Origin: an uncultured Agromyces sp.
Lineage (GTDB): Bacteria > Actinomycetota > Actinomycetes > Actinomycetales > Microbacteriaceae
Direction: 5' to 3'
Length of the DNA: 64,000 nucleotides
NCBI GenBank assembly: GCA_913053875.1
Contig: CAJXGN010000002.1
Coordinates: forward strand, 186,001-250,000
Shown: positions 21,177 to 34,808 of the stretch, piece after piece
Position numbering within the stretch: position 1 is the first letter of the stretch
How the letters are laid out: every line of letters begins with the position of its first letter
Made by a program: the position numbers and the translations under genes
The notes under the pieces: model-generated
The model's input: only the letters and a program-made list of their open reading frames with translations
Database searches by the model: none
Told to the model about the DNA's origin: nothing

Positions 21177-22253
21177 CTAACCGGCGTAGGGCGAGTACGG
21201 CCACGTGATCGCGGCGAGGGTCGTCTGCCCCGAGACGCTCGGATGGAAGTAGTCGTACGTCGAGATGTGCGACGAGCTGAACTGGAAGTCCGCCACGGCG
21301 TAGTCGTCGAAGCTGCATCGCTCGAGCGCCGCGCAGATGGACGCGAGCTGGTCGTTGTACTCGTCGACCCGCGCCTGCACGGCGTCGCGACGCTCCTCGC
21401 TCGCGGTGGTCGTCGAGGTCGGGTTCTGCAGCATCGACTGGCAGACGTCGCCGATCGCCCAGATGAACCTCGCCCAGCCGTTGTCCTTGCTGAGCGCCCA
21501 CATGCGCTTCAGGTTCGGCACCGTCGTCAGCAGGATCTCCGCGTCGGGCCGTGCGTCGGCGAACGCGGCGAGCGCGCCGGAGATGCTCGCTGCGTACGCG
21601 CTCGTCGGGGTCATCGCGCCCACCGTGTCGGTGCACGCGTCGTTGGCGCCGATCTGCACGGTCAGGTAGTCGGCCTCGGCCGCGATCGCCTGGTTCACCT
21701 GCGCGGCGAGGCCCGATGCCGTCGCACCGACCACCGCGGCGTTCACGGCCACGAGATCGGATGCCCCGGCTGCGCGCAACCGGGTCGCATGCGACTGCAC
21801 GCTCGACGAGGAACCCGTCGACCAGCTGTACTGCGGGTACGCGCCGCTGCCGACGGCGTCGTACGCGACGGTGATCGAGTCGCCGACGCCGACGATGACC
21901 GACGGGAGGCCGGCCGGGTCGGTGCCCGGGGTGGTGGGCGGCGGGCTCGTCTCGGTCGGGGGCGGCGTGGTCTCCGTCGGGGGCGGGGTCGTCTCCGTGG
22001 GTGGCGGAGTCGTCTCGGTGGGCGGCGGCGATGACGGCGGCGGGCTGGTGGTCGTGGGGGGCGGGGTCGTCGTGCTCGGCGGCGGCGTGCTCGTCGCGGT
22101 CGGCTTCCCGTTCCCCTTGCCGTTGCCGTTGCCGCCGCCCTTGCCCTCGGGCGGTGCGCCGAGCGCGGGGCTCGCGATGAGACCGACCGCGATCACAGCC
22201 GAGATGACGACGGCGACGGCTGCGGGAGCGCCGGCCGGACGATGACGGGACAT
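21177..22253 (-). CDS. Secreted SGNH/GDSL-type esterase with Pro/Thr-rich linker
   Basis: A 358-residue exported protein. An N-terminal signal peptide ends near the GAPPEG segment, a Gly/Asn/Lys patch follows, and then a low-complexity linker with repeated PPPTETT units occupies about residues 50-110. The catalytic domain has block I GVGDSIT, block III IGANDAC and block V DYFHPS, so Ser, Gly, Asn and His of the SGNH set are all present. It probably acts on ester substrates outside the cell, with the linker spacing it from the wall. The start at 22253 is supported by GGAGG upstream. It is downstream of the mycofactocin operon but separated from it by hairpins. Confidence 0.88.
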   Translation of the reverse strand: MSRHRPAGAPAAVAVVISAVIAVGLIASPALGAPPEGKGGGNGNGKGNGKPTATSTPPPSTTTPPPTTTSPPPSSPPPTETTPPPTETTPPPTETTPPPTETSPPPTTPGTDPAGLPSVIVGVGDSITVAYDAVGSGAYPQYSWSTGSSSSVQSHATRLRAAGASDLVAVNAAVVGATASGLAAQVNQAIAAEADYLTVQIGANDACTDTVGAMTPTSAYAASISGALAAFADARPDAEILLTTVPNLKRMWALSKDNGWARFIWAIGDVCQSMLQNPTSTTTASEERRDAVQARVDEYNDQLASICAALERCSFDDYAVADFQFSSSHISTYDYFHPSVSGQTTLAAITWPYSPYAG

Positions 22254-22384
22254 CGGTCCTCCGTTGGACGAATGCGAACGTTCGATCCGGGACGACCCGG
22301 CACGTGGTGCGTCGGCTGTGCGCGTCCGACGGCGGGCGACGAGCGCGTCAGCGGGCCGCGACAGCGGGCCCACGCGGCACGCTA

Positions 22385-22426
22385 GTCCTGCCGCAGGACG
22401 GCGACAACACCCCACTTCGCGGGGTG
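22385..22426 (-). terminator. Hairpins downstream of mftF (probable end of the mycofactocin operon)
   Basis: Reading the minus strand after the mftF stop, a CACCCC/GGGGTG stem (22408-22413 with 22421-22426) is followed by a second stem, GTCCTG/CAGGAC with a 3-nt loop (22385-22399). There is no clear T-run. Confidence 0.5.
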
Positions 22427-22434
22427 AGCCTCCC

Positions 22435-23841
22435 TCAGCTCTCCCGACGCGCCCGCAGGTCGGGCAGCAGCGCCCGCAGCGAGCGCCCCCGCATCGCGCT
22501 CGTCCACACGCCCCACCCGTAGGCGAGATCGTCGAGCCGCCGCGCGATGCCGAACCGCACCGGGTCGAGGCGAGGCCGCGTTCTGGCGTACTCCCACGCG
22601 GTGTCGGCGACGACCGCGACCACGACCGCCCGGCGGAGGCGGCGCGACACGAGGCATCCGATCGCCGTCAGCGGCCACCAGTGCCGCAGCAGCAGTGCGA
22701 CCCCCTGGGCCGACGCGCCGACGAGACCGTAGCCGGTGAGCCGCACGCCGAGCCGGTACGGATGCCGCACGCCCGACGCCCGTCGCCCGATGCGCACCGC
22801 GGTCACCGCGCCGAGCGCCGCGACCACCGGAACCGACCAACGCCGCTGCGCCAACAGCGCGCCGAGCGAGACCGCGGCCCAGGGCGCGAGCACCACCGGC
22901 GCGATGTCGTGGGGATGACGAGTACCGAGCGGGTGCGCGCCGGTACCGTAGAACGCCTTGCGCCCGAGCCACGCTCGCAGCGTGGTGCGGTGCTCGTGCC
23001 GCACGACGGCGGCGGGCTCGAACCGCACGCGCCGGCCCTCCGCCACGAGGCGCCAGACGAGGTCGACGTCCTCCCCCACGCGCATCGAGCCGTCGAACCC
23101 CTCCCCGAGCGCGTCGACCCGCGCGACCAGGCACGTGCTCGACACCCACGACACCGGCGAGCGCGGCCGCACGCTCGCGGCGTCGTCGCCGAGGTCGAGC
23201 GAGGAGCGGGCGTCCTCGTAGCGCGTGATCCAGTTCGGACGATCGGTCTCGAGTCCCAGCACCCGCGGCGCGGCCATCGCGAGGGCCGGGTCGGCGAAGT
23301 GCCGCAGCAGCAGTTCGAGAGCGGATGCCTCGGCCACGACGTCGGAGTCGATGAACGCGACGAACGGGGTGTCGACCCGCGCGAGACCGGCGTTGCGCGC
23401 GCCCGCTGGGCCGACGTTCGCGCCGAGCGCCACCAGCTCGGCGCCGTGCCGCGCGGCCACGGCGGCCGTGGCCACGGGGTCGTCGGAGGCGTCGTCGACG
23501 ACGAGCACGCGCACCTCGCCCGCGAGGCCGCCGAGCAGCCGGTCGAGCTGGCGCGGCCGGTCGCGGACCGGGACCACGACGGTCAGGGCCTCGAGCGACG
23601 CCGCGGGGAGTGCCGCGACGACCGGGTCGGCGAGCCCGGTGGCGAGCAGGTGCTCGGCGAGCGCCCGGCCGCTCGCGTCCTCGACCACCACGTCGCGCCC
23701 GCGCAGGCGGTCGCGCGCGGCCGGCTTCAGCCGCGCGATGCGCGTGGGTGCGCCACCCACGAGTACGGCTCCGTCGTCGAGCACGCGGGTGTGACGGCCC
23801 AGCCGCACGGTGAACCCGTCGGGCAGGCGGGGCGCCGGCAT
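22435..23841 (-). CDS. mftF: Mycofactocin glycosyltransferase MftF
   Basis: A 468-residue family 2 glycosyltransferase that attaches glucose units to the mycofactocin redox core. The GT-A core has VVVPVRDRPRQLDRLL, VLVVDDASDDP, and the acidic motif FIDSDVV, with RVGEDVDLVWRL further on. The N-terminal about 90 residues form the MftF-specific extension, and the C-terminal portion is hydrophobic (VVAALGAVTA, WWPLTAIGCLV), suggesting membrane association. The ATG at 23841 overlaps the mftE stop by one base, which fixes the start despite a longer open frame. It is the last gene of the minus-strand mft operon. Confidence 0.92.
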   Translation of the reverse strand: MPAPRLPDGFTVRLGRHTRVLDDGAVLVGGAPTRIARLKPAARDRLRGRDVVVEDASGRALAEHLLATGLADPVVAALPAASLEALTVVVPVRDRPRQLDRLLGGLAGEVRVLVVDDASDDPVATAAVAARHGAELVALGANVGPAGARNAGLARVDTPFVAFIDSDVVAEASALELLLRHFADPALAMAAPRVLGLETDRPNWITRYEDARSSLDLGDDAASVRPRSPVSWVSSTCLVARVDALGEGFDGSMRVGEDVDLVWRLVAEGRRVRFEPAAVVRHEHRTTLRAWLGRKAFYGTGAHPLGTRHPHDIAPVVLAPWAAVSLGALLAQRRWSVPVVAALGAVTAVRIGRRASGVRHPYRLGVRLTGYGLVGASAQGVALLLRHWWPLTAIGCLVSRRLRRAVVVAVVADTAWEYARTRPRLDPVRFGIARRLDDLAYGWGVWTSAMRGRSLRALLPDLRARRES

Positions 23842-24662
23842 CAGGTGTCCGTCGATCCGTCGTGCGCGTGCACCTCGGCCCCGGAACCGGTTGGTCCGCG
23901 GCGCCCGGTCGGCACGAGGCATCCGCGCCCGTCGACCTGCCCGCCCGCGATGCGCGCCCACGCATCGTCGACCATGCCCGCCAGCAGCCGCTCCCCCTCG
24001 ACGGCGTTGGCACCCGACGGGTCGCCGAGCACCCCGTTCGGCGCGACCTGCCGCACTCCACCCGCCCGCAGGGCCGGCATGAGGTCGGCGAGCGATGATG
24101 CCGTGTTGCCCGGCTCGGCCCGCGCCCGACGCACGAGGTCGGGTGCGATCGCGAGCACGAGCGACGTCTCGACCCGGCCCGCGTGCGCGTCGCCCGTGCC
24201 GCCCGCATCGAGCAGCCCGGCCGCAGGCCCGCACGGCAGCCACGACACCGGCCGCTCCTCGTCGCGCAGCACCGGCACCGCGGTCGCGAGCGCCTCGACG
24301 TTGCCGCCGTGGCCGTTCACGAGCACGATGCGCCCGGCCCATCCGCTCATCGACCGCCCCAGTTCGAGCAGCGCGAACGTCAGCGCCTGCGTGCCGATCG
24401 AGGACGTGCCGGGGAAGTCCTGGTGCTCGCCGCTCGCACCGTAGGCGAGCGCGGGCGCGGCGAGCGCCTCGACGCCGTCGGCACGGGCTCTGGCGACCAC
24501 GCCGTCGACCACGGCGGATGCCACGAGCGTGTCGGTCCCGAAGGGCAGGTGCGGCCCGTGCTGCTCGGTCGAGCCGACCGGCACGACGACGAGCGGGCGG
24601 TCGATCGCCGTCCACACGGCGTCGCCGAGCGCGCCCGGCCGCGCCCGGCCGCCCCTCACCAC
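23841..24662 (-). CDS. mftE: Mycofactocin precursor peptide peptidase MftE (creatininase family)
   Basis: A 273-residue metal-dependent amidohydrolase of the creatininase family. In mycofactocin synthesis it cleaves the modified C-terminal Val-Tyr unit from MftA. The metal-binding motif STEQHGPHLPFGTD (Glu33, His35, Asp44) is intact, and LVNGHGGN and DAHAGRVETS supply the other ligands. The frame begins with tandem GTG codons at 24662; an exact N-terminus is not certain. It lies 18 bases after mftD and overlaps mftF, so the three are co-translated. Confidence 0.93.
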   Translation of the reverse strand: MVRGGRARPGALGDAVWTAIDRPLVVVPVGSTEQHGPHLPFGTDTLVASAVVDGVVARARADGVEALAAPALAYGASGEHQDFPGTSSIGTQALTFALLELGRSMSGWAGRIVLVNGHGGNVEALATAVPVLRDEERPVSWLPCGPAAGLLDAGGTGDAHAGRVETSLVLAIAPDLVRRARAEPGNTASSLADLMPALRAGGVRQVAPNGVLGDPSGANAVEGERLLAGMVDDAWARIAGGQVDGRGCLVPTGRRGPTGSGAEVHAHDGSTDT

Positions 24663-24680: not shown

Positions 24681-25940
24681 TCAGGCGCCCGCAGCGGTCG
24701 ACTTCCGTGCACCCGATGCGGCCGGCCGCTTCGCAGCGGAACGTGACCGCGCACCGCTTCCAGCGGCCCCCGCCCCGAGATCGCGCCGGAACCCCTCGGG
24801 CATGAAGAGGTCCGCGGGCGACAGCTCGGAGATCGACGAGTGCCCGAGGCCGAGCACGGCCGAGTCGAGCCCGCCGCGCAGGATGTCGAGCACGTTCTCG
24901 ACGCCCGCCTGTCCATTCGCCGCCAACCCCCAGAGGTACGCTCGCCCGATCATGACCGCCCGCGCGCCGAGCGCGAGCGCCTTCGCCACGTCGCCGCCGC
25001 GGCGGACGCCGCCGTCGAGCAGCACCTCGACCTGGTCGCCCACGGCCTCGGCGATGCCCGGCAGCATCCGGATCGACGCCGGCGTCGTGTCAAGGTTATT
25101 GCCGCCGTGGTTCGACACCGAGATGGCGGTGACGCCCGCGTCGACCGCGCGCTTCGCGTCGTCGATGCGGCCCACGCCCTTCAGCATGAACGGTCCGCCC
25201 CAGGTCTCGCGGAGCCAGGCGACGTCCTCCCACGACGGCGGCGGGGTCGACATCCACTCGCCGTACGCGCCGAAGAAGGTGGGCGGGTCGCCGTCGGGCG
25301 GGGCGAGGTTCGGCGCCGTGAGGTCGGGCACGCGACCGGTCTTCAGGAAGTCGAGCAGCCACGACGGCTTCGTCACCGCCTGCGGGGCGAACCGCATCGC
25401 GGCCTGCAGGGTGAGCTTCTCGGGGATCCACGGGCTGCCCCAGTCGCGCCCGTTCGAGAACGACCAGTCGAGCGTGGCGATGAGCCCCTTCGCCCCCGCC
25501 GCACGCGCGCGCTCCATGCGCTGCACCATGGCCTCGCGCGAGCCGCTCCAGTACAGCTGGAAGAACGTGTTGCCGTTCGCCGCGGCGACCTCCTCGACCG
25601 GCTTCGACGCGAACGAGCTGAGGCCCATGATCGTGCCCCGGTTCGCCGCGGCGCGCGCGACCGCGACCTCGCCCTCGGGGTGCACGGCCTGCACGCCCGT
25701 CGGCGAGATGAGCACAGGCAGCGAGATCGGGATGCCCATGACGGACGTGTCGAGCGACCGCTCCGGCTGGTGCCCGGCGACGTGCGGGGCGAACTGGAGC
25801 TCGGCGAACGCGCGCATGTTGTCGTCGATCGTCGCGCCGCGCTCCGAGCCCGCGACCAGTGCGCCGTACACCGAGCCCGGCAGTCGCCTCTTCGCGCGTC
25901 GCTGCGCCTCGGCCACCGTCTCGAACCATGTCCCGGCCAT
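24681..25940 (-). CDS. mftD: Pre-mycofactocin synthase MftD (FMN-dependent)
   Basis: A 419-residue flavoenzyme of the alpha-hydroxy-acid oxidase family that oxidatively deaminates the released MftE product to pre-mycofactocin. Visible features are FMN-barrel segments PVLISPTGVQAVHPEGE, FFQLYWSGSREAM, the Lys-containing PFMLKGVG, and ISVSNHGGNNLD with the catalytic His. The NN following the HGG is the MftD-type replacement of the Arg found in lactate oxidases. The C-terminal about 30 residues are a basic, Ala/Ser-rich tail. It sits 75 bases after the VWA gene and 18 before mftE. Confidence 0.93.
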   Translation of the reverse strand: MAGTWFETVAEAQRRAKRRLPGSVYGALVAGSERGATIDDNMRAFAELQFAPHVAGHQPERSLDTSVMGIPISLPVLISPTGVQAVHPEGEVAVARAAANRGTIMGLSSFASKPVEEVAAANGNTFFQLYWSGSREAMVQRMERARAAGAKGLIATLDWSFSNGRDWGSPWIPEKLTLQAAMRFAPQAVTKPSWLLDFLKTGRVPDLTAPNLAPPDGDPPTFFGAYGEWMSTPPPSWEDVAWLRETWGGPFMLKGVGRIDDAKRAVDAGVTAISVSNHGGNNLDTTPASIRMLPGIAEAVGDQVEVLLDGGVRRGGDVAKALALGARAVMIGRAYLWGLAANGQAGVENVLDILRGGLDSAVLGLGHSSISELSPADLFMPEGFRRDLGAGAAGSGARSRSAAKRPAASGARKSTAAGA

Positions 25941-26015: not shown

Positions 26016-26993
26016 TCAGCCACCGAACATCTCGCTGATCGCGGGCGCCACCGCCCGCACGTCGCGCACCACGTGCAGCGTGCCCCGGCCGAGTCGGGCG
26101 AGCTCGCGCCCCAGCTCGACGTCGCGCTCCCCCGTCGAGTCGAGCAGCACGTCGAGCCGGGGCAGCCGCGCCGCGATCGGCCGGGGGTCGGGTCCGGCGT
26201 TGTGCACGCAGTCCGACAGCAGCACGACCCGCGAGTCGCGCAGCGGCGCTCCGGCGAGCTCCTTCGCGGCCAGCTCGAGCGGGAACGCCACGTTCGTGAG
26301 CCCCTGTGCGGGCAGCCGCATGATCGTGTCGACGAGTTCCATGGGCTGCACCGGCGCGCCGAGGTGCTGCAGCACCGCGGCATCCGACCAGAACGCGACG
26401 ACCGCCAGGTCGTCGTGCTGCAGCTCGCCCGCGAGCGCCCCCACCGTCGCGGCGGCGGTCAGGATGCGCTCGCCCTTCATCGACCCCGACACGTCGACGA
26501 CGAGCACGACCGAGCGCGTGGTGCGGATGCGCTCGCGCACCACGATGTCCTCGTCGTCGGGCACCGGCCGCTCGGCCAGCACCTCGATGGTCGCGTCGAG
26601 GTCGATCTCGTCGGACCCGCCCCGGTACGGCATGCTCCCGAGCTCGCCCATCCCCCGTCGCGAGGTCGCATCGCGCCGTGGCCGGGGCACGGCCAGCCGT
26701 GCGGCGATCTGGCGGGCGCGCTTCCGGGCGACCGGGTCGACGGATGCCTCGAGCTCGGGCGCGACCACGGCACCCTGCTCGTCCGTGAAGTCGCCGGCCA
26801 CCGATCCCGCACGAGCGGTCGCCCGCGAACGCGACCGACCGCCGGCGCGCAGCAGCATGCCGCCGGCGCCGGGGGTCGCATCGAACACGGTGGGGTCCTC
26901 CTGGAGCTGCTTCGGCTTGCGGCGCAAGGGCGTGCCCTGCTCCGTGCGGCGCTCGCGGCCCGACTCCCGCTGGATCGGCGAGTCGGCCGGCAC
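26016..26993 (-). CDS. VWA domain protein (CoxE-like) in the mycofactocin operon
   Basis: A 325-residue protein with a basic, low-complexity first half and a von Willebrand factor A domain from about residue 165. The metal-ion-dependent adhesion site is DVSGS in VVDVSGSMKGER, followed by the expected Thr (QGLTNV) and Asp (LLSDCVH) positions. Such proteins partner MoxR ATPases as chaperone or metal-insertion modules for redox enzymes. The GTG at 26993 begins six bases after the MoxR stop, so the pair is coupled. Within this operon it may mature MftD or an MFT-dependent enzyme; that is inference, as the pair is not part of the known mft set. Confidence 0.85.
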   Translation of the reverse strand: MPADSPIQRESGRERRTEQGTPLRRKPKQLQEDPTVFDATPGAGGMLLRAGGRSRSRATARAGSVAGDFTDEQGAVVAPELEASVDPVARKRARQIAARLAVPRPRRDATSRRGMGELGSMPYRGGSDEIDLDATIEVLAERPVPDDEDIVVRERIRTTRSVVLVVDVSGSMKGERILTAAATVGALAGELQHDDLAVVAFWSDAAVLQHLGAPVQPMELVDTIMRLPAQGLTNVAFPLELAAKELAGAPLRDSRVVLLSDCVHNAGPDPRPIAARLPRLDVLLDSTGERDVELGRELARLGRGTLHVVRDVRAVAPAISEMFGG

Positions 26994-26999
26994 GGCCCT

Positions 27000-27959
27000 T
27001 CATCCCGGCGCGGCAGTCGCCGGCTCGAGCACGAAGCGGTCCTCCCAGATCTCGCGCAGCACCCGCTCGGGCGTCGTCTCGGCGGCCTCGTCGAGGTGGA
27101 TGCGGCCCGAGAGCGACACGATCATCGCGTCGAGCACCATGGCCGGGTACTGCTCCTGCTCGGGCGAGCGGATGCCCCGCATCTCGGCGAGTTCGGTGCC
27201 GACGAGCACGCAGTCGATCGCGCCGCGCACGCTCGACCCCTGCCGCACGTCGGGGTGGGTGCGGGTCGCGCGGGTCACGGCGACCGCGTCGCGCACGAGC
27301 CGTTCGCCCACCGCGCCCCGCGCGCCCGAGCGGAGTGCGGCGATGCGCTCCTCGGCCTCGGCGTCCTGGTAGTCGACGGCGAGCCGGTTGAGCCGGTCGT
27401 GCACGCTCGTCGAGAGGCGCGTGGTGCCGATGTTGTCGTACGGGTTCATCGACGCGATGACCCGGAAGGTCGCCTTGGCGCGGATGCGCCCGACCCGCGG
27501 CACCGCGATCGACCGGTCGGCCATCGCGGTGAGCAGCGTGTTGATGGTGTCCTCGGGCGCGCGGTTGAACTCCTCGATGTAGAGGAACCCGCCCTGCTGC
27601 ATCGCCTCCACGAGGGGCCCGGCGACGAAGTTGTCGGCGCTGTAGTCCTCGCGCAGCACGCGCGCCGGGTTGTGGTGGCCGACGAGCTTCGCCGGCGTGA
27701 GGTCGGCGTTGCCCTCGACGAAGAGCAGGGGGATGCCCCAGTCGGCCGTGATCGCGGTGAGCATCGTGGTCTTGCTCGTGCCGGGCGGTCCCTCGAGCAG
27801 GATGTCCCGCCCGGCGGCGACCGCCGCGAGCGTCAGCTCGAGCTCCCGTTCCCGGCCCACGATGTTCGCCGCGATGCGCCGGCGCCGTTCGGCGAGATCG
27901 CCGCCCGTCGCCGCGCGATCGACGTCCGTCGGGGCATCCGTCACCTGTTCCTCGCCCAT
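27000..27959 (-). CDS. MoxR-family AAA+ ATPase in the mycofactocin operon
   Basis: A 319-residue AAA+ ATPase. Walker A is GPPGTSKT at residues 57-64, Walker B is FLYIEEFNRA, sensor 1 is VIASMNPYDN, and the DRLNRLAVDY segment follows, all as in MoxR proteins. MoxR ATPases work with VWA proteins to activate or load cofactors into enzymes, and the VWA partner follows directly. The ATG at 27959 has GGAGGGGAG immediately upstream and lies 11 bases after the SDR gene. Its position between MFT-coupled dehydrogenases and mftD suggests that some step of MFT enzyme maturation needs ATP-driven remodelling; no target can be named. Confidence 0.9.
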   Translation of the reverse strand: MGEEQVTDAPTDVDRAATGGDLAERRRRIAANIVGRERELELTLAAVAAGRDILLEGPPGTSKTTMLTAITADWGIPLLFVEGNADLTPAKLVGHHNPARVLREDYSADNFVAGPLVEAMQQGGFLYIEEFNRAPEDTINTLLTAMADRSIAVPRVGRIRAKATFRVIASMNPYDNIGTTRLSTSVHDRLNRLAVDYQDAEAEERIAALRSGARGAVGERLVRDAVAVTRATRTHPDVRQGSSVRGAIDCVLVGTELAEMRGIRSPEQEQYPAMVLDAMIVSLSGRIHLDEAAETTPERVLREIWEDRFVLEPATAAPG

Positions 27960-27970
27960 GCGCTCCCCTC

Positions 27971-28804
27971 CTACTTCACCGCCGCGCCGGCGTCGACCGG
28001 CAGCGGGACGCCGGTGATGTACCGGGCCTCGTCGGATGCCAGGAACAGCACCGCGTTCGAGATGTCGACGGCCTCGACCCACGGGATGGGCAGCGCATTG
28101 ATCGCGCCCGCGCCCTCGGCGAAGTCGTCCTTCGTCGGGTTCTCGAGGTCGGGCCGGAACAGCCGGTAGATGGCGTCGTTCTGCACCATCGGCGTGTCCA
28201 CGACCGTGGGGTGCACGCTGTTCACGCGGATCATGTCGGGCGCCAGCTCGAGGGCGAGCGTCTTCATGAGCCCGACCACGCCGTGCTTGGCCGACACGTA
28301 GTGCGAGATGTTCTCGAACGCGAACAGCCCGGCGTCGGAGCTCGTCAGGATCATCGACCCGCCGTTGCCGCCGGCGCGGATGTGCGGAATGGCCGCCTTG
28401 CAGCTGCGCCACACCCCGTTGAGGTTGATGTCGGTCATGTTGACCCACTCGTCCTCGGGGATGTCCTCGGCCCGGTTGAACCGGCCCGCGATGCCCGCGT
28501 TGGCGCACACGATGTCGAGCCGGCCGAGCTGGGCGACGCCCTCGTCGACGGCCCGCTTTACCTGGTCGAAGTCGCGCACGTCGGCCTTCGACGCGACGAT
28601 GCGCCGGTCGAGTGCCTCGACCTGGCGCACGGTCTCCGCGAGGTCCTCCTCGGTCGCCGGATCGTACGGGTTCTCCTCGAACCGCTCGCACGCGTCGATC
28701 GCGATGATGTCGGCGCCCTCCTGGGCCAGTCGCACCGCGTGGCTGCGACCCTGTCCTCGTGCGGCGCCCGTGATGAACGCCACCTTCCCCTCCACACGCC
28801 CCAT
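27971..28804 (-). CDS. Mycofactocin-coupled SDR family oxidoreductase (third paralog)
   Basis: A 277-residue short-chain dehydrogenase. The nucleotide site is TGAARGQG near residue 13, with CANAG, a catalytic Ser in ILTSSDAG, and the YVSAKHG catalytic Tyr/Lys. The segment around residues 40-70 (ACERFEENPYDPATEEDLAE) is the insertion typical of MFT-coupled SDRs, which hold NAD tightly and pass electrons to mycofactocin instead of exchanging NAD(H). The substrate is probably an alcohol. It is separated from the second paralog by a strong hairpin and followed 11 bases later by the MoxR gene. Confidence 0.9.
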   Translation of the reverse strand: MGRVEGKVAFITGAARGQGRSHAVRLAQEGADIIAIDACERFEENPYDPATEEDLAETVRQVEALDRRIVASKADVRDFDQVKRAVDEGVAQLGRLDIVCANAGIAGRFNRAEDIPEDEWVNMTDINLNGVWRSCKAAIPHIRAGGNGGSMILTSSDAGLFAFENISHYVSAKHGVVGLMKTLALELAPDMIRVNSVHPTVVDTPMVQNDAIYRLFRPDLENPTKDDFAEGAGAINALPIPWVEAVDISNAVLFLASDEARYITGVPLPVDAGAAVK

Positions 28805-28886: not shown

Positions 28887-29696
28887 TCAGTACTGCGTGT
28901 TGCCCGCGTCGACGGTCATCGCCATCGCGGTGACGTACCGCGACTCGTCGGAGGCGAGGAACAGCACGGCGTTCGACTGGTCGCGCGGCTCGGTCACCTC
29001 GATCGGCAGCGAGTTGGTGAGCATGCCGGCGAGGCGCGGGTTGGCTTCGAGCATGCGCGGGTACTCGGCGCCCATCTGCCCCATGTCGGTGGCGACACCG
29101 GTCGGATGCAGCGAGTTGACGCGGATGTTGTGCATCGCCAGCTCGTGCGCGAACGCCTTCGTCAGCCCGGTCACGCCGAACTTCGACGCGACGTACGGCG
29201 TGATGAACGGCAACCCCTTGAGGCCCGCCGCAGAGCTGGTGAGGATGATCGAGCCGCCGCCGGCCGCGATCAGGTGCGGCGCGGTGAGGCGCACGGTGTT
29301 CCAGACGCCCTTGAGGTTGGTGTCGACCGTGTCGTCCCAGATCTCCTCGGTCACCTCGTCCCACGGGGCGACGATGCAGATGCCCGCGTTGCCGACGACG
29401 ATGTCGAGGTGGCCGAGCTCGGCCACGCCCTCGTCGACGGCCGCCTTCATGGCCGCCGCGTCGCGCACGTCGGCCTCCCTGGCGACGATGCGCCGGTCGA
29501 GCGCCTCGACCTGCCGGACGGTCTCCTCGAGGTCCTCCGGGGTCGCGTGCGGGTACTGGAGGTTCGGGATCGGCCCGCAGACGTCGACCGCGATGATGTC
29601 GGCGCCCTCTTCGGCGAGTCGCAGCGCGTGGCTGCGCCCCTGCCCGCGGGCCGCTCCGGTGACGAAGGCGACCTTGCCTTCCACTCGTCCTGCCAT
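28887..29696 (-). CDS. Mycofactocin-coupled SDR family oxidoreductase (second paralog)
   Basis: A 269-residue SDR paralog. TGAARGQG is the dinucleotide-binding loop, VVGNAGI replaces the usual NNAG, the catalytic set is ILTSSAAG with YVASKFG, and the family insertion (VCGPIPNLQYPHATPEDLEE) is present. It differs from its neighbours in the substrate-side loop near residues 190-220, so it probably accepts a different alcohol. It lies 33 bases after the first paralog and is followed by the hairpin at 28846-28882. Confidence 0.9.
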   Translation of the reverse strand: MAGRVEGKVAFVTGAARGQGRSHALRLAEEGADIIAVDVCGPIPNLQYPHATPEDLEETVRQVEALDRRIVAREADVRDAAAMKAAVDEGVAELGHLDIVVGNAGICIVAPWDEVTEEIWDDTVDTNLKGVWNTVRLTAPHLIAAGGGSIILTSSAAGLKGLPFITPYVASKFGVTGLTKAFAHELAMHNIRVNSLHPTGVATDMGQMGAEYPRMLEANPRLAGMLTNSLPIEVTEPRDQSNAVLFLASDESRYVTAMAMTVDAGNTQY

Positions 29697-29729: not shown

Positions 29730-30548
29730 TCAGCGCTTGTTGAGGAATCCTGCGTCCACCGGCAGCGTGACGCCGGTCACGTAGCGGGCGGCGTCGGAGG
29801 CGAGCCAGACGATCGCGTTCGAGATGTCGACCGCTTCGATCATCGGCACCGGCAGCGCGTTCGCCATGGCGTTCGAGAGGCTGGGATCGGACTCCAGGAA
29901 CTCCTGCATCACGTCGTTCACGACCATCGGCGTGTTCACGCCGGTGGGGTGCACGGTGTTCACGCGGATCGAGTGCTCGGCCAGCTGGTTCGCGTAGCTG
30001 CGCATGAGGCCGACCACGCCGTGCTTCGCCGCCGTGTAGCCGAGCCCGCCAGGGGTGTTGCCGCCGATGCCGGCGATGCCCGCAGTCGAGCTGGTCAGCA
30101 CGATCGCGCCGCCCTTGCCGTGCGCGATCATCGACGGCTTGACGACCTCGACCGTGTGGTAGACACCGGTGAGGTTGACGTCGATGACGTCCTGCCACTC
30201 CTCCGGTACCGGATTCATCGACAGCGGCGCGATGCCGGCGTTGGCCGACACGATCTGCACGTCGCCGAGCTCGGCGACGCCCGCGTCGAAGGCCGCCTGC
30301 ATCGCGTCGCGGTCGCGCACGTCGGCCTCGACGGCGTGGATGCGCCGGTCGAGCGCCTCGACCTGTGCGACCGTCTCCGCGAGGTCCTCCGGCGTCGACA
30401 TCGGGTATCCGACGGTCTCGATCTGCTTGCAGAGGTCGATCGCGATGATGTCGGCGCCCTCCTCGGCGAGGCGAACCGCGTGCGCCCTGCCCTGGCCGCG
30501 CGCGGCGCCCGTGATGAAGGCGACCTTGCCCTCGAGTTGTCCTGCCAT
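29730..30548 (-). CDS. Mycofactocin-coupled SDR family oxidoreductase (first paralog)
   Basis: A 272-residue SDR directly after mftC. It has [15 protein letters not shown], a Ser in VLTSSTAG and YTAAKHG as the catalytic set, and the MFT-SDR insertion around [19 protein letters not shown]. The ATG at 30548 is chosen over the longer open frame because a ribosome-like GGAAAGG lies just upstream on the minus strand and alignment with the other two paralogs begins here (MAG.LEGKVAF). The 96-bp gap to mftC contains a hairpin, so it may have its own level of expression. Confidence 0.9.
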
Positions 30549-30595
30549 GGTGTTGCACCCTTTCCTTCCGGGCGCGCCGGACGGCCCGTGGACAC

Positions 30596-30632
30596 GCACG
30601 GCCGCACCACGACCGCGTCGTCGCGGCCGTGC
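30596..30632 (-). terminator. Hairpin between mftC and the first SDR gene
   Basis: Inverted arms GCACGGCCGC (30596-30605) and GCGGCCGTGC (30623-30632) enclose a 17-nt region that can pair further. It lies 12 bases after the mftC stop on the minus strand and may limit read-through from mftABC or shape the mRNA end. Confidence 0.5.
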
Positions 30633-30644
30633 CGTGGTCGGGTC

Positions 30645-32003
30645 TCACGCGAGTCGGGGCGGAGCGCCTCCCTCGTGGCGCCGGTCGGCGCCGCTCTGCT
30701 TCGTGTCGAAGTCGTTCCCCTGCGCCTGGGCGAGCGTCGCGGCGAAGCCCGCGAGCGGGCTCTCGGCGCACGCGCTGACCGGCGGTGCCTGGAGGTCCTC
30801 CCGGCGCGAGAGCGTGAGGCGTACCGGTCCCATGCCGTTCGGGCCCGTACGCGGGCGGGGCGGCGAGGTGCGGTGCGAGTGGTCGCCGGAGTGCTTCGGG
30901 AGGTCCGCGGCGGCCGCGCGCTGCTCGAGCGCCTGCTCGCCGTAGCCCTGCACGCACTCGGGGTCGGGCCCGTCGAGCGGCAGGCCGGTGAAGAACTTCG
31001 CCGCCATGCATCCGCCCTTGCACGTGTCGTAGAACTGGCAGGACGAGCACGCGCCGCCCGACTGCGGCGAGCGCAGTCGGCCGAACAGCTCCGACTCGCG
31101 CCAGACCTGCTGGAAGCCCCCGACCTCGCGCACGTTGCCGGCGAGGAACTCGTCGTGGATCGCGAACGGGCAGGCGTAGACGTCGCCGATCGGATCGATC
31201 AGGCACACCACGCGGCCGGCCCCGCAGAGGTTCAGCCCGGGCAGCGCCTGGCCGTACGCGGAGAGGTGGAAGAACGAGTCGCCGGTCAGCACGTCCTCGC
31301 CGTGCGCAACGAGCCAGTCGTAGAGCTCGCGCTGCTGGTCGGCGGTGGGGTGCAGTTCGTCCCACACGTCGGCGCCGCGGCCCGAGGGCCGCAGGCGCGT
31401 GAGGCGCAGCTGCGCGCCGTACTCGTCGGCGATGGCCTTGAAGTCGTCGAGCTGCGAGATGTTCTGCCGGGTGCAGACCACCGAGAGCTTGAAGTTGCGC
31501 ATGCCCGCGTCGCGGAGGTTCCGCATGGCGCGGACCGCCGTGTCGTACGAGCCGGGGCCGCGGACGTGGTCGTTCACGTCGGGCGTCGCGCCGTCGAGCG
31601 AGACCTGCACGTCGACGTAGTCGTTCGCGGCGAGGCGCTCGGCGACCTCGGGCGTGATCTTCACCCCGTTGGTGGAGAACTTCACGCCCACGTGGTGCGC
31701 GGTCGCGTAGTCGACCAGCTCCCAGAAGTCGCTGCGCACGGTCGGCTCGCCGCCGCCGATGTTCACGTAGAACACCTGCATCCGCTCGAGCTCGTCGATG
31801 ACCGCCTTGCACTCCTCGGTCGAGAGTTCGCGCGGGTCGCGGCGGCCCGAGCTCGACAGGCAGTGCACGCACGAGAGGTTGCACGCGTAGGTGAGCTCCC
31901 AGGTGAGGCAGATCGGGGCGTCGAGCCCGAGCTCGAAGTGGTCGACCAGGCGCTTGGGCGCAGGCGGGGGGGCGGCCTGGACCGGGGCATCCGTCAGTGT
32001 CAT
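30645..32003 (-). CDS. mftC: Mycofactocin radical SAM maturase MftC
   Basis: A 452-residue radical SAM/SPASM enzyme that acts on the C-terminal Val-Tyr of MftA, first decarboxylating the tyrosine and then forming a carbon-carbon crosslink. The radical SAM cluster motif is CNLSCVHC (Cys41, Cys45, Cys48), with the GGGEP motif nearby. The SPASM domain near residues 260-360 supplies further Cys, including GDVYACPF and CSSCQFYDTCKGGC. The last about 85 residues are a low-complexity extension. The ATG at 32003 overlaps the mftB stop as ATGA. Confidence 0.95.
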   Translation of the reverse strand: MTLTDAPVQAAPPPAPKRLVDHFELGLDAPICLTWELTYACNLSCVHCLSSSGRRDPRELSTEECKAVIDELERMQVFYVNIGGGEPTVRSDFWELVDYATAHHVGVKFSTNGVKITPEVAERLAANDYVDVQVSLDGATPDVNDHVRGPGSYDTAVRAMRNLRDAGMRNFKLSVVCTRQNISQLDDFKAIADEYGAQLRLTRLRPSGRGADVWDELHPTADQQRELYDWLVAHGEDVLTGDSFFHLSAYGQALPGLNLCGAGRVVCLIDPIGDVYACPFAIHDEFLAGNVREVGGFQQVWRESELFGRLRSPQSGGACSSCQFYDTCKGGCMAAKFFTGLPLDGPDPECVQGYGEQALEQRAAAADLPKHSGDHSHRTSPPRPRTGPNGMGPVRLTLSRREDLQAPPVSACAESPLAGFAATLAQAQGNDFDTKQSGADRRHEGGAPPRLA

Positions 32004-32290
32004 GCGGCCCGCTCCCCTGCGTCGCGCGGCGCGATCATGCGCGACTCGGCGAGCGTGCCGAGTGCGCGCAGGTACGTCGGCAGGTGCGTCTCGGCCACCC
32101 CGGCGTCGATGCAGGCGGCGCGGGCGCTCGGGGCATCCGCCAGCCGTTCGACCACGTCGAGCAGCGTGCGGTCCTTCAGGAACGACAGCCGGCGCGTGCC
32201 GAAGTGGTAGAGCAGCGCGCCGAACGGTTCGGGGCGTACGGAGACCTGCGGATGCAGGGTCCAGGTGGAGTCGGGATCGATCGAAGCCAT
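32000..32290 (-). CDS. mftB: Mycofactocin precursor-binding chaperone MftB (PqqD-like)
   Basis: A 96-residue PqqD-like RiPP recognition protein that binds the MftA leader and presents it to MftC. The segment WTLHPQVSVRPEPFGALLYHFGTRRLSFLKDRTL is the family core. The ATG at 32290 is 11 bases after the mftA stop; a longer in-frame start at 32317 would overlap mftA and is less likely. There is no strong ribosome site, so coupling to mftA translation is probable. Confidence 0.92.
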   Translation of the reverse strand: MASIDPDSTWTLHPQVSVRPEPFGALLYHFGTRRLSFLKDRTLLDVVERLADAPSARAACIDAGVAETHLPTYLRALGTLAESRMIAPRDAGERAA

Positions 32291-32301
32291 GGCGAGCGCG
32301 G

Positions 32302-32412
32302 TCAGTAGACGCCGCACATGCCGTCGATCGAGACCTCCTCGACGAGCGAATCGGCTTCGACGATGTCGTCGGCTGCCTGCTGGGAGTCGTCGACCGGGTT
32401 CATTCGAGTCAT
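32302..32412 (-). CDS. mftA: Mycofactocin precursor peptide MftA
   Basis: A 36-residue ribosomal precursor peptide. The C-terminus IDGMCGVY is the diagnostic mycofactocin core, and the terminal Val-Tyr becomes the cofactor; the acidic N-terminal part is the leader. The ATG at 32412 is preceded by GAGGAG at the right distance, and the next ATG (32403) would remove three residues. It is the first gene of the minus-strand operon, with mftB and mftC following directly. Confidence 0.96.
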   Translation of the reverse strand: MTRMNPVDDSQQAADDIVEADSLVEEVSIDGMCGVY

Positions 32413-32508: not shown

Positions 32509-33150
32509 ATGACCCTGCCGGAGGAGGCCCCGACGCGCCCCCGGATGGGCCGTGCGCCGTCGACGACCCACGCCGAGCTGAGCCACACCGCGCTGCGCCT
32601 GTTCATGGACAACGGCTTCGACGAGACCACCATCGACGACATCGCCCGCGAGGCGGGCATCGGGCGGCGCACCTTCTTCCGCTACTTCCCGTCGAAGAAC
32701 GACCTCCCGTGGGGCGAGTTCGACGCGATGCTCGACGGCATGCGCACGCACCTCGGCGGCATGCCCGACGAGATGCCGCTCATGGAACAGCTGCGCGTCG
32801 CGATCCTCGACTTCAACCGCGTGCCCGCGGAGGAGGCCGAGTACCACCGCCGGCGCATGGAGCTGCTCCTGCACGTGCCGACGCTGCTCGCGCACTCGAC
32901 CTTGCGGTACACGGCGTGGCGGGAGGTGGTCGCCGAGCACGTCGCCGGTCGCCTCGACCTCCCGTCGGAGGACCTCGTGCCGCAGACCATGGCCTGGACC
33001 TGCCTCGGCGTGTGCCTCGCCGCGTACGAGCAGTGGCTGCGCGAGCCCGAGTCCGACCTCATCGACCAGCTCGACCAGGCGTTCGGCATGATCGACGAGC
33101 GCATCGATCCGCGCGTCGTGCAGGCGCACCGGCGGCCGCGGCGGGCATGA
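32509..33150 (+). CDS. mftR: TetR-family regulator MftR of the mycofactocin locus
   Basis: A 213-residue TetR-type repressor. The N-terminal helix-turn-helix is clear (FMDNGFDETTIDDIAREAGIGRRTFFRYF, residues about 30-60), followed by a ligand-binding helical domain. The MftR subfamily shows the same ELSHTALRLF and PSKNDLPWGEFD segments. It is divergent from mftA across 96 bp with a dyad candidate operator, and its stop overlaps the mftG start as ATGA. In mycobacteria MftR binds acyl-CoA; whether this one does is unknown. The ATG at 32509 follows a GGGAAGGGGG ribosome-like site, and the longer open frame crosses the promoter. Confidence 0.9.
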   Translation: MTLPEEAPTRPRMGRAPSTTHAELSHTALRLFMDNGFDETTIDDIAREAGIGRRTFFRYFPSKNDLPWGEFDAMLDGMRTHLGGMPDEMPLMEQLRVAILDFNRVPAEEAEYHRRRMELLLHVPTLLAHSTLRYTAWREVVAEHVAGRLDLPSEDLVPQTMAWTCLGVCLAAYEQWLREPESDLIDQLDQAFGMIDERIDPRVVQAHRRPRRA

Positions 33151-34808
33151 CCCGGCGGGTCGTCGTGGTCGGCGCGGGCGCGGCGGGCGCTCCGCTGGCC
33201 GCGCGGCTGAGCGAGGACGCCGATGTCGACGTGACCGTGCTCGAGGCCGGGGCGGTGCCGGCGCGGCGTGCCGAGTTCCCGCCCGAGCTGCTCGACGCGT
33301 CGACCGTGCAGGGCGCGATGCCCGGGCACCCGGCGAACTGGTCGTACCTCGGGCACCTCACCGAGGACCTGCCGTACACGATCGCGCGCGGCCGCATCAT
33401 CGGCGGCTCGTCGACCATCAACGGGGCCTACTTCGTGCGTGCCACGCCGGCCGACTTCGCGCGCTGGGCGACGGTCGGCGGCGACGACTGGGGCTACGAG
33501 CGGATGCTCCCCCGCATGCGCGCGCTCGAGCGCGACCTCGACCTCGGGGCGGGGCCGCTGCACGGCGACGCGGGGCCGATGCCGGTGCGGCGCGCGGCCC
33601 AGGGGCATCCGGCCGCCGAGGCCTTCAGCGCGGCGGCGCGCGACCTCGGCTTCGCCGACGAGCCCGACAAGAACGCCGGCGGGGCGGCGGGGGTCGGGCC
33701 GGTGCCGCTGAACGTGGTCGACGGGGTGCGGGTCAACACGGGCGAGGCGTACCTGAACCCGGCGCGCGGGCGGCCGAACCTGCGGGTGGTGGGCGGATGC
33801 CGCGTGCTGCGCGTCGTGCTCGACGGGACGCGCGCGACCGGGGTCGAGGTGCTCCGCGACGGTGCGCGCGAGACCGTGCCCGCCGACGAGGTGGTGCTCT
33901 GCGCCGGGGGCATCGGCACGCCGCACCTGCTGCTCGCCTCCGGCATCGGCCCGGCCGACCAGTTGCGGGCTGCCGGCGTGCCCGTGGTCGTCGACTCGCC
34001 CGGCGTGGGGGCCGCGTTCAGCGACCACCCCGACCTGTCGATCGGCTGGCGTGCGCGGCGCGACCTCATGGACCCGCGCACGCCCGAGACCTTCACGACC
34101 GCGCTCAACCTGTCGTCGGGGGAGCCGGTGCCGGATGCCTCGGGGGCACCCGGCGCGCCCGCCGACGACCTCGAGGTCATGGTGTGCGTGAAGTCGATGA
34201 GCTGGCTGCTCACCGGGCGGCGCAGCATGTTCGCGGGCGGCGCGCGAACCGCCCTGCGGCACCCGATCGACACCCTGCGCGCGCTGCGCGGTACCTCGCT
34301 CGCCCGGGTGCGCGAGCAGGCGGCGCACGGCCGCGACCTGTCGGTGCTCGTCGGCCTGCAGCGCGAACAGGCGCGCGGGTCGATCACGCTCGCCTCGGCC
34401 GACCCGACCGTGGCGCCGCACATCGACTACCGCTACCTGTCGACCGCGTCCGACCGTGCGCGGTTGCGGGTCGGCGTGCGCACCGCGGTGGCGCTGCTGC
34501 GCAGCCGACCGTTCGCGCCGCTCGTCGAGCGGCTCACCGAGCTGGACGACGCGACCGTCGCAGACGACGACGCGCTCGACGCGTGGATGCGCGCGCACCT
34601 CGGCACGGCCATCCACCTCTGCGGCAGCGCCCCGATGGGGCCGGCGGATGCCCCGGGCTCGGTCGTCGACGCGCACGGTCGAGTGCACGGGGCGACCGGG
34701 CTGCGCGTCGCCGACACGTCGATGCTGCCCGACACCCCGTCGCGCGGTCCGGCGGCGACCGCCGTGCTCATCGGGGAGTCGGTGGCCGCGTGGATGCGCG
34801 CGGAGTAG
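33147..34808 (+). CDS. mftG: GMC-family oxidoreductase MftG
   Basis: A 553-residue FAD enzyme of the glucose-methanol-choline family. The FAD loop is VVVGAGAAGAPLAARL at the N-terminus, GRIIGGSSTINGAYFVR is GMC signature 1, and the C-terminal catalytic region has IHLCGSAPMG and DTPSRGPAATAVLIGE. In MFT-using actinobacteria this protein is thought to reoxidise reduced mycofactocin and hand electrons to the respiratory chain. Start by ATGA overlap with mftR. Location beside mftR in the divergent arm is as in other MFT loci. Confidence 0.9.
   Translation: MTRRVVVVGAGAAGAPLAARLSEDADVDVTVLEAGAVPARRAEFPPELLDASTVQGAMPGHPANWSYLGHLTEDLPYTIARGRIIGGSSTINGAYFVRATPADFARWATVGGDDWGYERMLPRMRALERDLDLGAGPLHGDAGPMPVRRAAQGHPAAEAFSAAARDLGFADEPDKNAGGAAGVGPVPLNVVDGVRVNTGEAYLNPARGRPNLRVVGGCRVLRVVLDGTRATGVEVLRDGARETVPADEVVLCAGGIGTPHLLLASGIGPADQLRAAGVPVVVDSPGVGAAFSDHPDLSIGWRARRDLMDPRTPETFTTALNLSSGEPVPDASGAPGAPADDLEVMVCVKSMSWLLTGRRSMFAGGARTALRHPIDTLRALRGTSLARVREQAAHGRDLSVLVGLQREQARGSITLASADPTVAPHIDYRYLSTASDRARLRVGVRTAVALLRSRPFAPLVERLTELDDATVADDDALDAWMRAHLGTAIHLCGSAPMGPADAPGSVVDAHGRVHGATGLRVADTSMLPDTPSRGPAATAVLIGESVAAWMRAE

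Follow-up and report, generated by a model that had tools for sequence, protein, structure and literature searches.

In the closest described systems, a VWA-domain partner binds a ring of MoxR-type AAA+ ATPases: the partner in CbbQO acts on Rubisco to release inhibitor (PMC4660213), and that in NorQD, where the NorD finger comprises residues 403-448, lets iron into cNOR (PMC13036017). Here, we describe a MoxR-VWA pair in the mycofactocin (MFT) operon of an uncultured Agromyces sp., contained in a 64,000-nucleotide stretch of DNA (assembly GCA_913053875.1, contig CAJXGN010000002.1, positions 186,001 to 250,000; this whole stretch is hereafter called the window). We know of no account of how nicotinoproteins gain their non-exchanging cofactor, or of the route by which a peptide cofactor carrying sugars gets to it. 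On balance, the pair appears to be a dedicated AAA+ remodeling machine, akin to NorQ/NorD or CbbQ/CbbO, for mycofactocin-dependent nicotinoprotein dehydrogenases, represented here by three upstream short-chain dehydrogenases/reductases (SDRs). That its client is a dehydrogenase is the more assured part of this reading, and we consider it likely. The remodeling role is suggested by the conserved pairing of the two proteins, their fusions, the complete ATPase and metal ion-dependent adhesion site (MIDAS) motifs, the NorQ/CbbQ- and NorD-like folds, and the place of the pair behind two unrelated mycofactocin-linked dehydrogenase families. MoxR-VWA pairs are a known kind of system; their linkage to mycofactocin-dependent dehydrogenases seems new, as no publication on it was found among the open-licence papers listed, where one expression table gives mycofactocin and MoxR separately. 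Likewise, a word search of two papers on mycofactocin clusters (PMC3023750 and PMC11778925) did not find the pair.

The pair and the SDR genes preceding it are as follows.

27000..27959, minus strand: MoxR-type AAA+ ATPase (open reading frame of 319 aa, ATG start within a longer frame; Pfam AAA_5/AAA_3)
26016..26993, minus strand: VWA-domain protein (open reading frame of 325 aa, GTG start; Pfam VWA_2 and VWA_CoxE; complete MIDAS)
27971..28804, minus strand: mycofactocin-coupled SDR directly upstream of MoxR (TIGR03971, 405 bits; cut-off, 300)
28887..29696, minus strand: mycofactocin-coupled SDR (TIGR03971, 374 bits; cut-off, 300)
29730..30599, minus strand: mycofactocin-coupled SDR (TIGR03971, 383 bits; cut-off, 300)

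A first-pass annotation had placed a MoxR ATPase (GPPGTSKT, IEEFNRA) and a VWA protein with a DVSGS site between the third SDR gene and mftD, with gaps of 11, 6, and 75 bases. Open reading frames (ORFs), Pfam matches, and coordinates agree with it exactly: 11 bases separate the SDR stop (27971) from the MoxR start (27959), 6 separate the MoxR stop (27000) from the VWA start (26993), and 75 separate the VWA stop (26016) from the mftD start (25940).

Dehydrogenases directly upstream of MoxR

Relatives of the window MoxR were sought in a sample of 296 genomes of one phylum, in which the best 7 MoxR candidates per genome were scored. Matches were found in 25/296 genomes at an E value of ≤1e-20 and in 22/296 at ≤1e-70, a cut chosen after viewing the match list and used here to delimit the subfamily. 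The neighborhood of each match, up to 20 kb in length, was examined with genes called by a home-made codon-usage caller, giving 26 MoxR genes of the subfamily in the 22 genomes. An N,N-dimethyl-4-nitrosoaniline (NDMA)-dependent alcohol dehydrogenase (ADH) of family TIGR03989 lies directly upstream of 19 of the 26 on the same strand, and all 19 were recovered above cut-off at agreeing coordinates by an independent family search. The gene directly upstream of 5 others encodes a mycofactocin-coupled SDR, belonging to TIGR03971 (window, L036, and L037) or TIGR04504 (L049 and L058), and the remaining 2 MoxR genes are second copies in tandem behind the first MoxR (L036 and L037). Most ADH-MoxR gaps that could be called (13/18) measure ≤10 bases or are overlaps; at L045, where the caller merged the ADH into a longer ORF and left MoxR uncalled, both genes were counted from the protein and family searches. 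TIGR03989 ADHs and MFT-SDRs are unrelated families that have in common a mycofactocin link and a non-exchanged NAD (Haft 2011, PMC3023750; for the SDRs, Haft 2017, PMC5264612). As clients of the pair, the first-pass annotation had offered MftD, MftE, or an MFT-dependent dehydrogenase. The last of these is favored by the dehydrogenase directly upstream of 24/26 MoxR genes; MftD and MftE are less supported, given nine loci of family code f29 in which an ADH lies directly upstream of MoxR and mftD was not found in the stretch read.

Genomes from GTDB were also scanned with the MoxR alignment; the 80 named loci considered are the best of at least 553 relatives and are biased to close kin. They include Agromyces, Microbacterium, Cryobacterium, Arthrobacter, Streptomyces, Gordonia, Rhodococcus, Williamsia, Blastococcus, Klenkia, and Jiangella, the closest named relatives of the window MoxR being from Agromyces (83-86% identity). 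A window-type SDR directly precedes MoxR on the same strand in 66/80 loci, at a median gap of 15 bases (≤10 bases in 27 of the 66). As a background, such an SDR directly precedes 17 of the 1,051 other genes of these loci, with MoxR and SDR genes excluded. A VWA gene directly follows MoxR in 76/80, and in 3 of the other 4, MoxR is the last called gene on its contig.

Side features were seen at several loci. A ferredoxin-like protein (by eye), a mycofactocin-associated electron transfer flavoprotein (ETF) beta subunit (TIGR04503), and a TIGR04504 SDR adjoin MoxR-VWA at L058 (7580-9566), and L052 also holds members of the L058 small-protein clusters. A 104-aa protein, antibiotic-biosynthesis-monooxygenase-like by eye, is encoded between VWA and mftD at L129 (4711-5025) and L133 (11808-12122). 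Loci closely like the actinobacterial ones occur in metagenome-assembled genome records titled Mucilaginibacter and Acidobacteria (L090 and L114).

Co-occurrence with mycofactocin

The mftC model matched 36/296 genomes of the phylum sample at an E value of ≤1e-60. These matches fall in 21 of the 22 genomes with the MoxR subfamily versus 15 of the 274 others (Fisher p 1.6e-21, a descriptive value, since species are not independent); the match in G237 is part-length. At the looser MoxR cut-off of ≤1e-20, mftC is found in 21/25 genomes. No mftC match was seen in three genomes with weaker MoxR matches only (G032, G043, and G044; E values of 1.5e-29 to 2.9e-63), which marks an edge of the MoxR subfamily. 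Within the stretches read, mftC is present for 13/26 MoxR genes (12 loci and the window). Among the named loci, 42/80 contain mftC. A genome-wide check, which leaves out loci L068, L078, L085, L090, L094, L136, and L113, covered the genomes of 31 loci without local mftC: mftC lies elsewhere in 29, and the other 2 (Cryobacterium sp. Y50 and Leucobacter sp. wl10) have mftD above cut-off.

The pair recurs across genomes in linkage with mycofactocin and is no chance arrangement. The first-pass annotation rightly set it outside the canonical mftABCDEF/R/G genes, and the locus holds a real, recurrent mycofactocin-associated MoxR-VWA module. The random scatter relative to mft genes that would have spoken against the first-pass idea was not seen by genome or by neighborhood, though 15/36 mftC genomes lack the pair and mftC lies near only 13/26 MoxR genes.

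Separation of the pair from mycofactocin biosynthesis

In each of two genomes, G053 and G237, the pair is present as two paralogous copies: an ADH precedes one of them, and SDRs precede the other, which has an additional MoxR. By contig coordinates, more than 1 Mb separates the two copies, and both are >0.5 Mb from the mftC match even if the contig is circular. In their SDR-linked loci (L037 in G053 and L036 in G237), tandem MoxR genes follow a run of MFT-SDRs and the second MoxR is fused to VWA, possibly giving a mixed MoxR ring.

The pair also occurs on two Rhodococcus plasmids, the only 2 records matching in a plasmid collection at an E value of ≤1e-30. On R. qingshengii plasmid RQCS_2, an MFT-SDR gene overlaps moxR by 4 bases and VWA follows, and no mft biosynthesis gene is annotated across the 14.9-kb stretch. 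This module (L217, NZ_AP023173.1, 116254-131138, on a linear 486-kb plasmid) has flavin reductase, VOC, and acyl-CoA dehydrogenase-like genes nearby, and its surroundings look like a catabolic cluster. Because it is found far from mftC, on plasmids, and twice in a single genome with one copy per dehydrogenase type, the pair goes with the dehydrogenase and not with the biosynthetic genes.

In a tree of 56 MoxR proteins, sequences group by partner (ADH, TIGR03971, or TIGR04504) with several changes of partner; the total of 10 partner-label changes was matched or undercut by 0/200 shuffles. All trees were quick, with several weak forks; 29/80 named loci are represented in the MoxR tree and 24/80 in a dehydrogenase tree, picked for spread, and the unlinked rows of the dehydrogenase trees were drawn from loci returned by the genome search, not from all matches.

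Observations that limit the reading

Several observations weigh against a dedicated dehydrogenase machine. In 11/80 named loci, MoxR is directly preceded by something other than such a dehydrogenase or an mft gene; in the 9 of these that were inspected, one upstream gene is by eye like old yellow enzyme (OYE). The pair can therefore stand alone, apart from any dehydrogenase or mft gene directly upstream. On R. ruber plasmid pmega_1, the nearest MFT-SDRs flank the pair on the opposite strand. Genome G173 (89% complete, 580 contigs) has the pair and neither mftC nor mftD above cut-off. Conversely, the pair is missing from 15/36 mftC genomes, among them 8/8 of family code f6, of which 7 carry both TIGR03989 and TIGR03971 matches (the SDR of G288 scores just below cut-off), so both families also occur in its absence. 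Finally, MoxR-linked and unlinked SDRs and ADHs are intermixed in trees. We accordingly rejected a single MoxR-dependent SDR or ADH clade, and the mixed trees argue against a simple rule by which one dehydrogenase clade needs the pair.

Given its absence from those 15 genomes and this intermixing, the pair is an accessory with no universal need, and it may count for some substrates, conditions, or stability. The two other sampled genomes of the source genus have neither the pair nor mftC.

Motifs and predicted folds

The window MoxR matches AAA_5 (3.8e-23) and AAA_3 (2e-14) above the gathering score and has a Walker A motif, GPPGTSKT, and a Walker B-like motif, FLYIEEFNRA. In alignments of 15 and of 31 MoxR proteins, G57-P-P-G-T-x-K, E129-E130, N172, and R245 are invariant; some of these conserved residues represent the sensor motifs of a MoxR AAA+ domain. 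The Walker B segment (residues 126-130) reads LYIEE, with both glutamates invariant in both alignments. The usual Walker B motif has DE, and a glutamate here stands at the customary aspartate place. The AlphaFold single-chain MoxR model has a mean predicted local distance difference test score (pLDDT) of 88.3. Its top VIA matches are CbbQ2 (6l1q) and NorQ (9qh9), both at Z 23.5, and the first 10 ranks are all taken by NorQ and CbbQ structures (Z 20.1-23.5 over 231-253 residues), the next row being dynein at Z 18.1. By its predicted fold, then, the window MoxR is a NorQ/CbbQ-like motor.

No NCBIfam model (June 2026) names either protein above its cut-off. Membership in GvpN (TIGR02640; 72.5 bits versus a cut-off of 266.8) and in the MadB ATPase family (NF047784; 51.8 bits versus 475) was rejected for MoxR. 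A defense-system role was likewise dropped, as PADLOC gave none for the VWA protein and only weak IetA matches (E values of 2.8e-4 and 5.1e-4) at the MoxR P-loop region.

The VWA protein matches VWA_2 (2.2e-11) and VWA_CoxE (2.5e-7) above the gathering score, the latter model, PF05762, being matched at an E value of ≤0.01 by 31/31 VWA members. Its MIDAS is complete, with D167-x-S169-x-S171 (DVSGS), T233, and D261, and these residues are invariant in 31/31 aligned proteins. In the phylum-sample set, which takes in the window protein and one non-MFT pair (L059), DxSxS and the threonine are kept in 25/25 and the aspartate in 24/24 with letters there. The single-chain VWA model is of lower mean pLDDT (75.8), and residues 1-67 (<50) are not reliably predicted. 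Its first Foldseek match is chain G of 9qhd, a NorQD complex (E value of 4.4e-10; TM score, 0.45/0.53; root-mean-square deviation [rmsd], 8.3 Å), and this chain was taken as NorD on the ground that NorQ accounts for six chains in each entry. VIA-align returned generic VWA domains at Z 18-19, with NorD absent among the 50 rows shown, and NorD was also absent when the VWA alignment was run as a profile against PDB sequences. From position only, we infer that residues ~107-150, a conserved segment before the DxSxS strand, would be the counterpart of the NorD finger. The model is consistent with a NorD-like adaptor. MoxR and VWA form one ORF in at least 8/26 phylum-sample cases, which is strong evidence that the two act together.

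Proposed mechanism

The genomic data support the client assignment well; for the exact step, we offer a hypothesis whose mechanism we infer. The SDR encoded at 27971..28804 is the most likely client, and those at 28887..29696 and 29730..30599 are possible ones. A MoxR hexamer would spend ATP to move the VWA protein, which would grip the dehydrogenase and open it transiently. Such an opening could let NAD load or be replaced where the cofactor is damaged or is dead-end NADH; alternatively, it could give mycofactocin, which is bulky and glycosylated, access to the buried nicotinamide. Either event would resemble the reset of inhibited Rubisco by CbbQO. Cofactor loading or reset, or the admission of mycofactocin, is put forward tentatively as the step concerned. 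It is equally tentative that the pair exemplifies an ATP-driven activase class for nicotinoproteins, in which MoxR-VWA would act on dehydrogenases whose NAD does not exchange, opening them so that the buried NAD(H) can be loaded or reset or mycofactocin admitted, and paralogous pairs in one cell would each serve a different dehydrogenase superfamily.

If a dedicated AAA+ machine is indeed encoded behind such dehydrogenases across several families of the phylum, the mycofactocin system would gain an accessory component that has so far been missing from it. The pair could help explain why some such dehydrogenases appear active solely with artificial dyes, and the Rhodococcus plasmid module flags alcohol dehydrogenases that may need MoxR-VWA co-expression.

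Alternative roles

The pair might instead assemble a complex, without opening a pocket, by coupling an MFT-dependent dehydrogenase to its electron sink (MftG, a membrane complex, or OYE or ETF partners). The mftG gene lies in this part of the window, a mycofactocin OYE-type gene (L044, f29) and the ETF-beta gene of L058 (f44) lie near pairs, and the association of RavA-ViaA with fumarate reductase (PMC10585395) is a precedent. However, the RQCS_2 pair adjoins a dehydrogenase in a stretch with no annotated MftG, OYE, or ETF gene, and no OYE/ETF cluster member was called in L036-L038 (a search that did not extend to MftG). We regard electron-sink coupling as rather unlikely.

Less probable still is a role of the pair in maturing the cofactor or the enzymes that make it (MftD, MftE, or another step). 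This would suit the many Microbacteriaceae-type loci and three f18 loci in which mftD directly follows the pair, as well as the finding that, outside a locus without mftC, all 31 searched genomes have mftC (29 genomes) or, failing that, mftD (the other 2). It fits poorly with the 15/36 mftC genomes that do without the pair, with the occurrence in both G053 and G237 of two separate pairs that adjoin dehydrogenases at a great distance from mftC, and with the nine f29 loci that have an ADH directly upstream and no mftD found in the stretch.

Metal insertion in the manner of CoxD/CoxE or NorQD, for example of Zn into an Rxyl_3153-type ADH or of metal into MftE, is very unlikely. NorQD inserts iron (PMC13036017), and the CoxE-like Pfam model recognizes the VWA protein. 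A link to 19/26 sampled MoxR genes could also be claimed for metal, these lying behind TIGR03989 ADHs, which are a Zn-dependent family. SDRs, on the other hand, use no catalytic metal; they are the candidate clients in the source genome, and 66/80 named loci are SDR-linked. That genome (3.5 Mb, 99.98% complete) has no TIGR03989 enzyme above cut-off (top score, 241 bits versus 440), and TIGR04266 (NDMA-methanol dehydrogenase) and TIGR04504 gave none above cut-off either. The three window SDRs are its sole TIGR03971 matches at an E value of ≤1e-60; the genome-wide searches comprised these models and not the SDR models NF040490 and NF040491. The CoxD/CoxE-like metal loading suggested at first pass is weakened by these results, as the dehydrogenases here are SDRs and neither an Rxyl_3153-type ADH nor an NDMA-methanol dehydrogenase exceeds its cut-off. 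With no Zn- or Fe-type MFT enzyme above cut-off in the source genome, metal loading as a general role was rejected as the leading idea.

A general chaperone pair without a specific client, traveling in catabolic operons by chance, might be read from the 15/36 mycofactocin genomes that lack the pair and the 11/80 loci without a dehydrogenase or mft gene directly upstream, but it is scarcely credible for a subfamily nearly confined at ≤1e-70 to mycofactocin genomes (21/22), with an MFT-type dehydrogenase directly upstream of 24/26 MoxR genes and the other 2 being tandem copies.

Architecture of the locus

The mft operon of the window runs on the minus strand in the order mftA-mftB-mftC-SDR-SDR-SDR-moxR-vwa-mftD-mftE-mftF; divergently from it, mftR and mftG are read from the plus strand. 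Besides the pair and the SDRs, the genes are as follows.

32302..32412, minus strand: mftA precursor peptide, C-terminal IDGMCGVY (TIGR03969 above cut-off at the end of a longer frame; start and stop from sequence)
32000..32317, minus strand: mftB peptide chaperone ORF (TIGR03967 above cut-off; start probably the ATG at 32290, from sequence)
30645..32003, minus strand: mftC radical SAM maturase (TIGR03962 above cut-off, 662 bits)
24681..25940, minus strand: mftD pre-mycofactocin synthase (TIGR03966 above cut-off, 691 bits)
23841..24662, minus strand: mftE creatininase-family peptidase (TIGR03964 above cut-off)
22435..23835 (start provisional), minus strand: mftF glycosyltransferase (TIGR03965 above cut-off)
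32509..33150, plus strand: mftR TetR regulator, divergent (TIGR03968 above cut-off)
33147..34808, plus strand: mftG GMC mycofactocin dehydrogenase (TIGR03970 above cut-off; start from sequence; ATGA overlap with mftR)

Downstream of mftF, a minus-strand frame at 21180-22415 has a Pro/Thr-rich segment and no NCBIfam match at an E value of ≤0.01. We take the GDSI motif that follows this segment to be SGNH-hydrolase-like.

Comparison with known systems

The canonical mftABCDEF/R/G cluster is fully represented in the window, and the pair is extra to that set. CoxD/CoxE likewise combines an AAA+ protein with a CoxE-like VWA protein in a context of cofactor maturation; unlike that system, the pair has MFT-SDRs and mft genes as neighbors in place of the Mo/Cu CO dehydrogenase, and CoxD is a membrane protein (PMC3471820). 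With NorQ/NorD, the pair shares the fold of its motor (Z 23.5 to NorQ 9qh9), the first Foldseek match of its VWA protein (9qhd chain G), and a MIDAS T-to-D spacing of 28 residues, equal to that of NorD T534/D562 (PMC9976466). It differs in that the proposed client is a dehydrogenase and SDR clients need no metal. CbbQ/CbbO similarly joins a MoxR motor to a VWA adaptor, and the window MoxR model superimposes on AfCbbQ2 (6l1q) at Z 23.5 and an rmsd of 2.3 Å over 250 residues, with 23% identity over the aligned part and a client that is not Rubisco. The two isoform sets that A. ferrooxidans has for its two Rubisco forms (PMC4660213) parallel the two pairs that G053 and G237 have for two dehydrogenase types.

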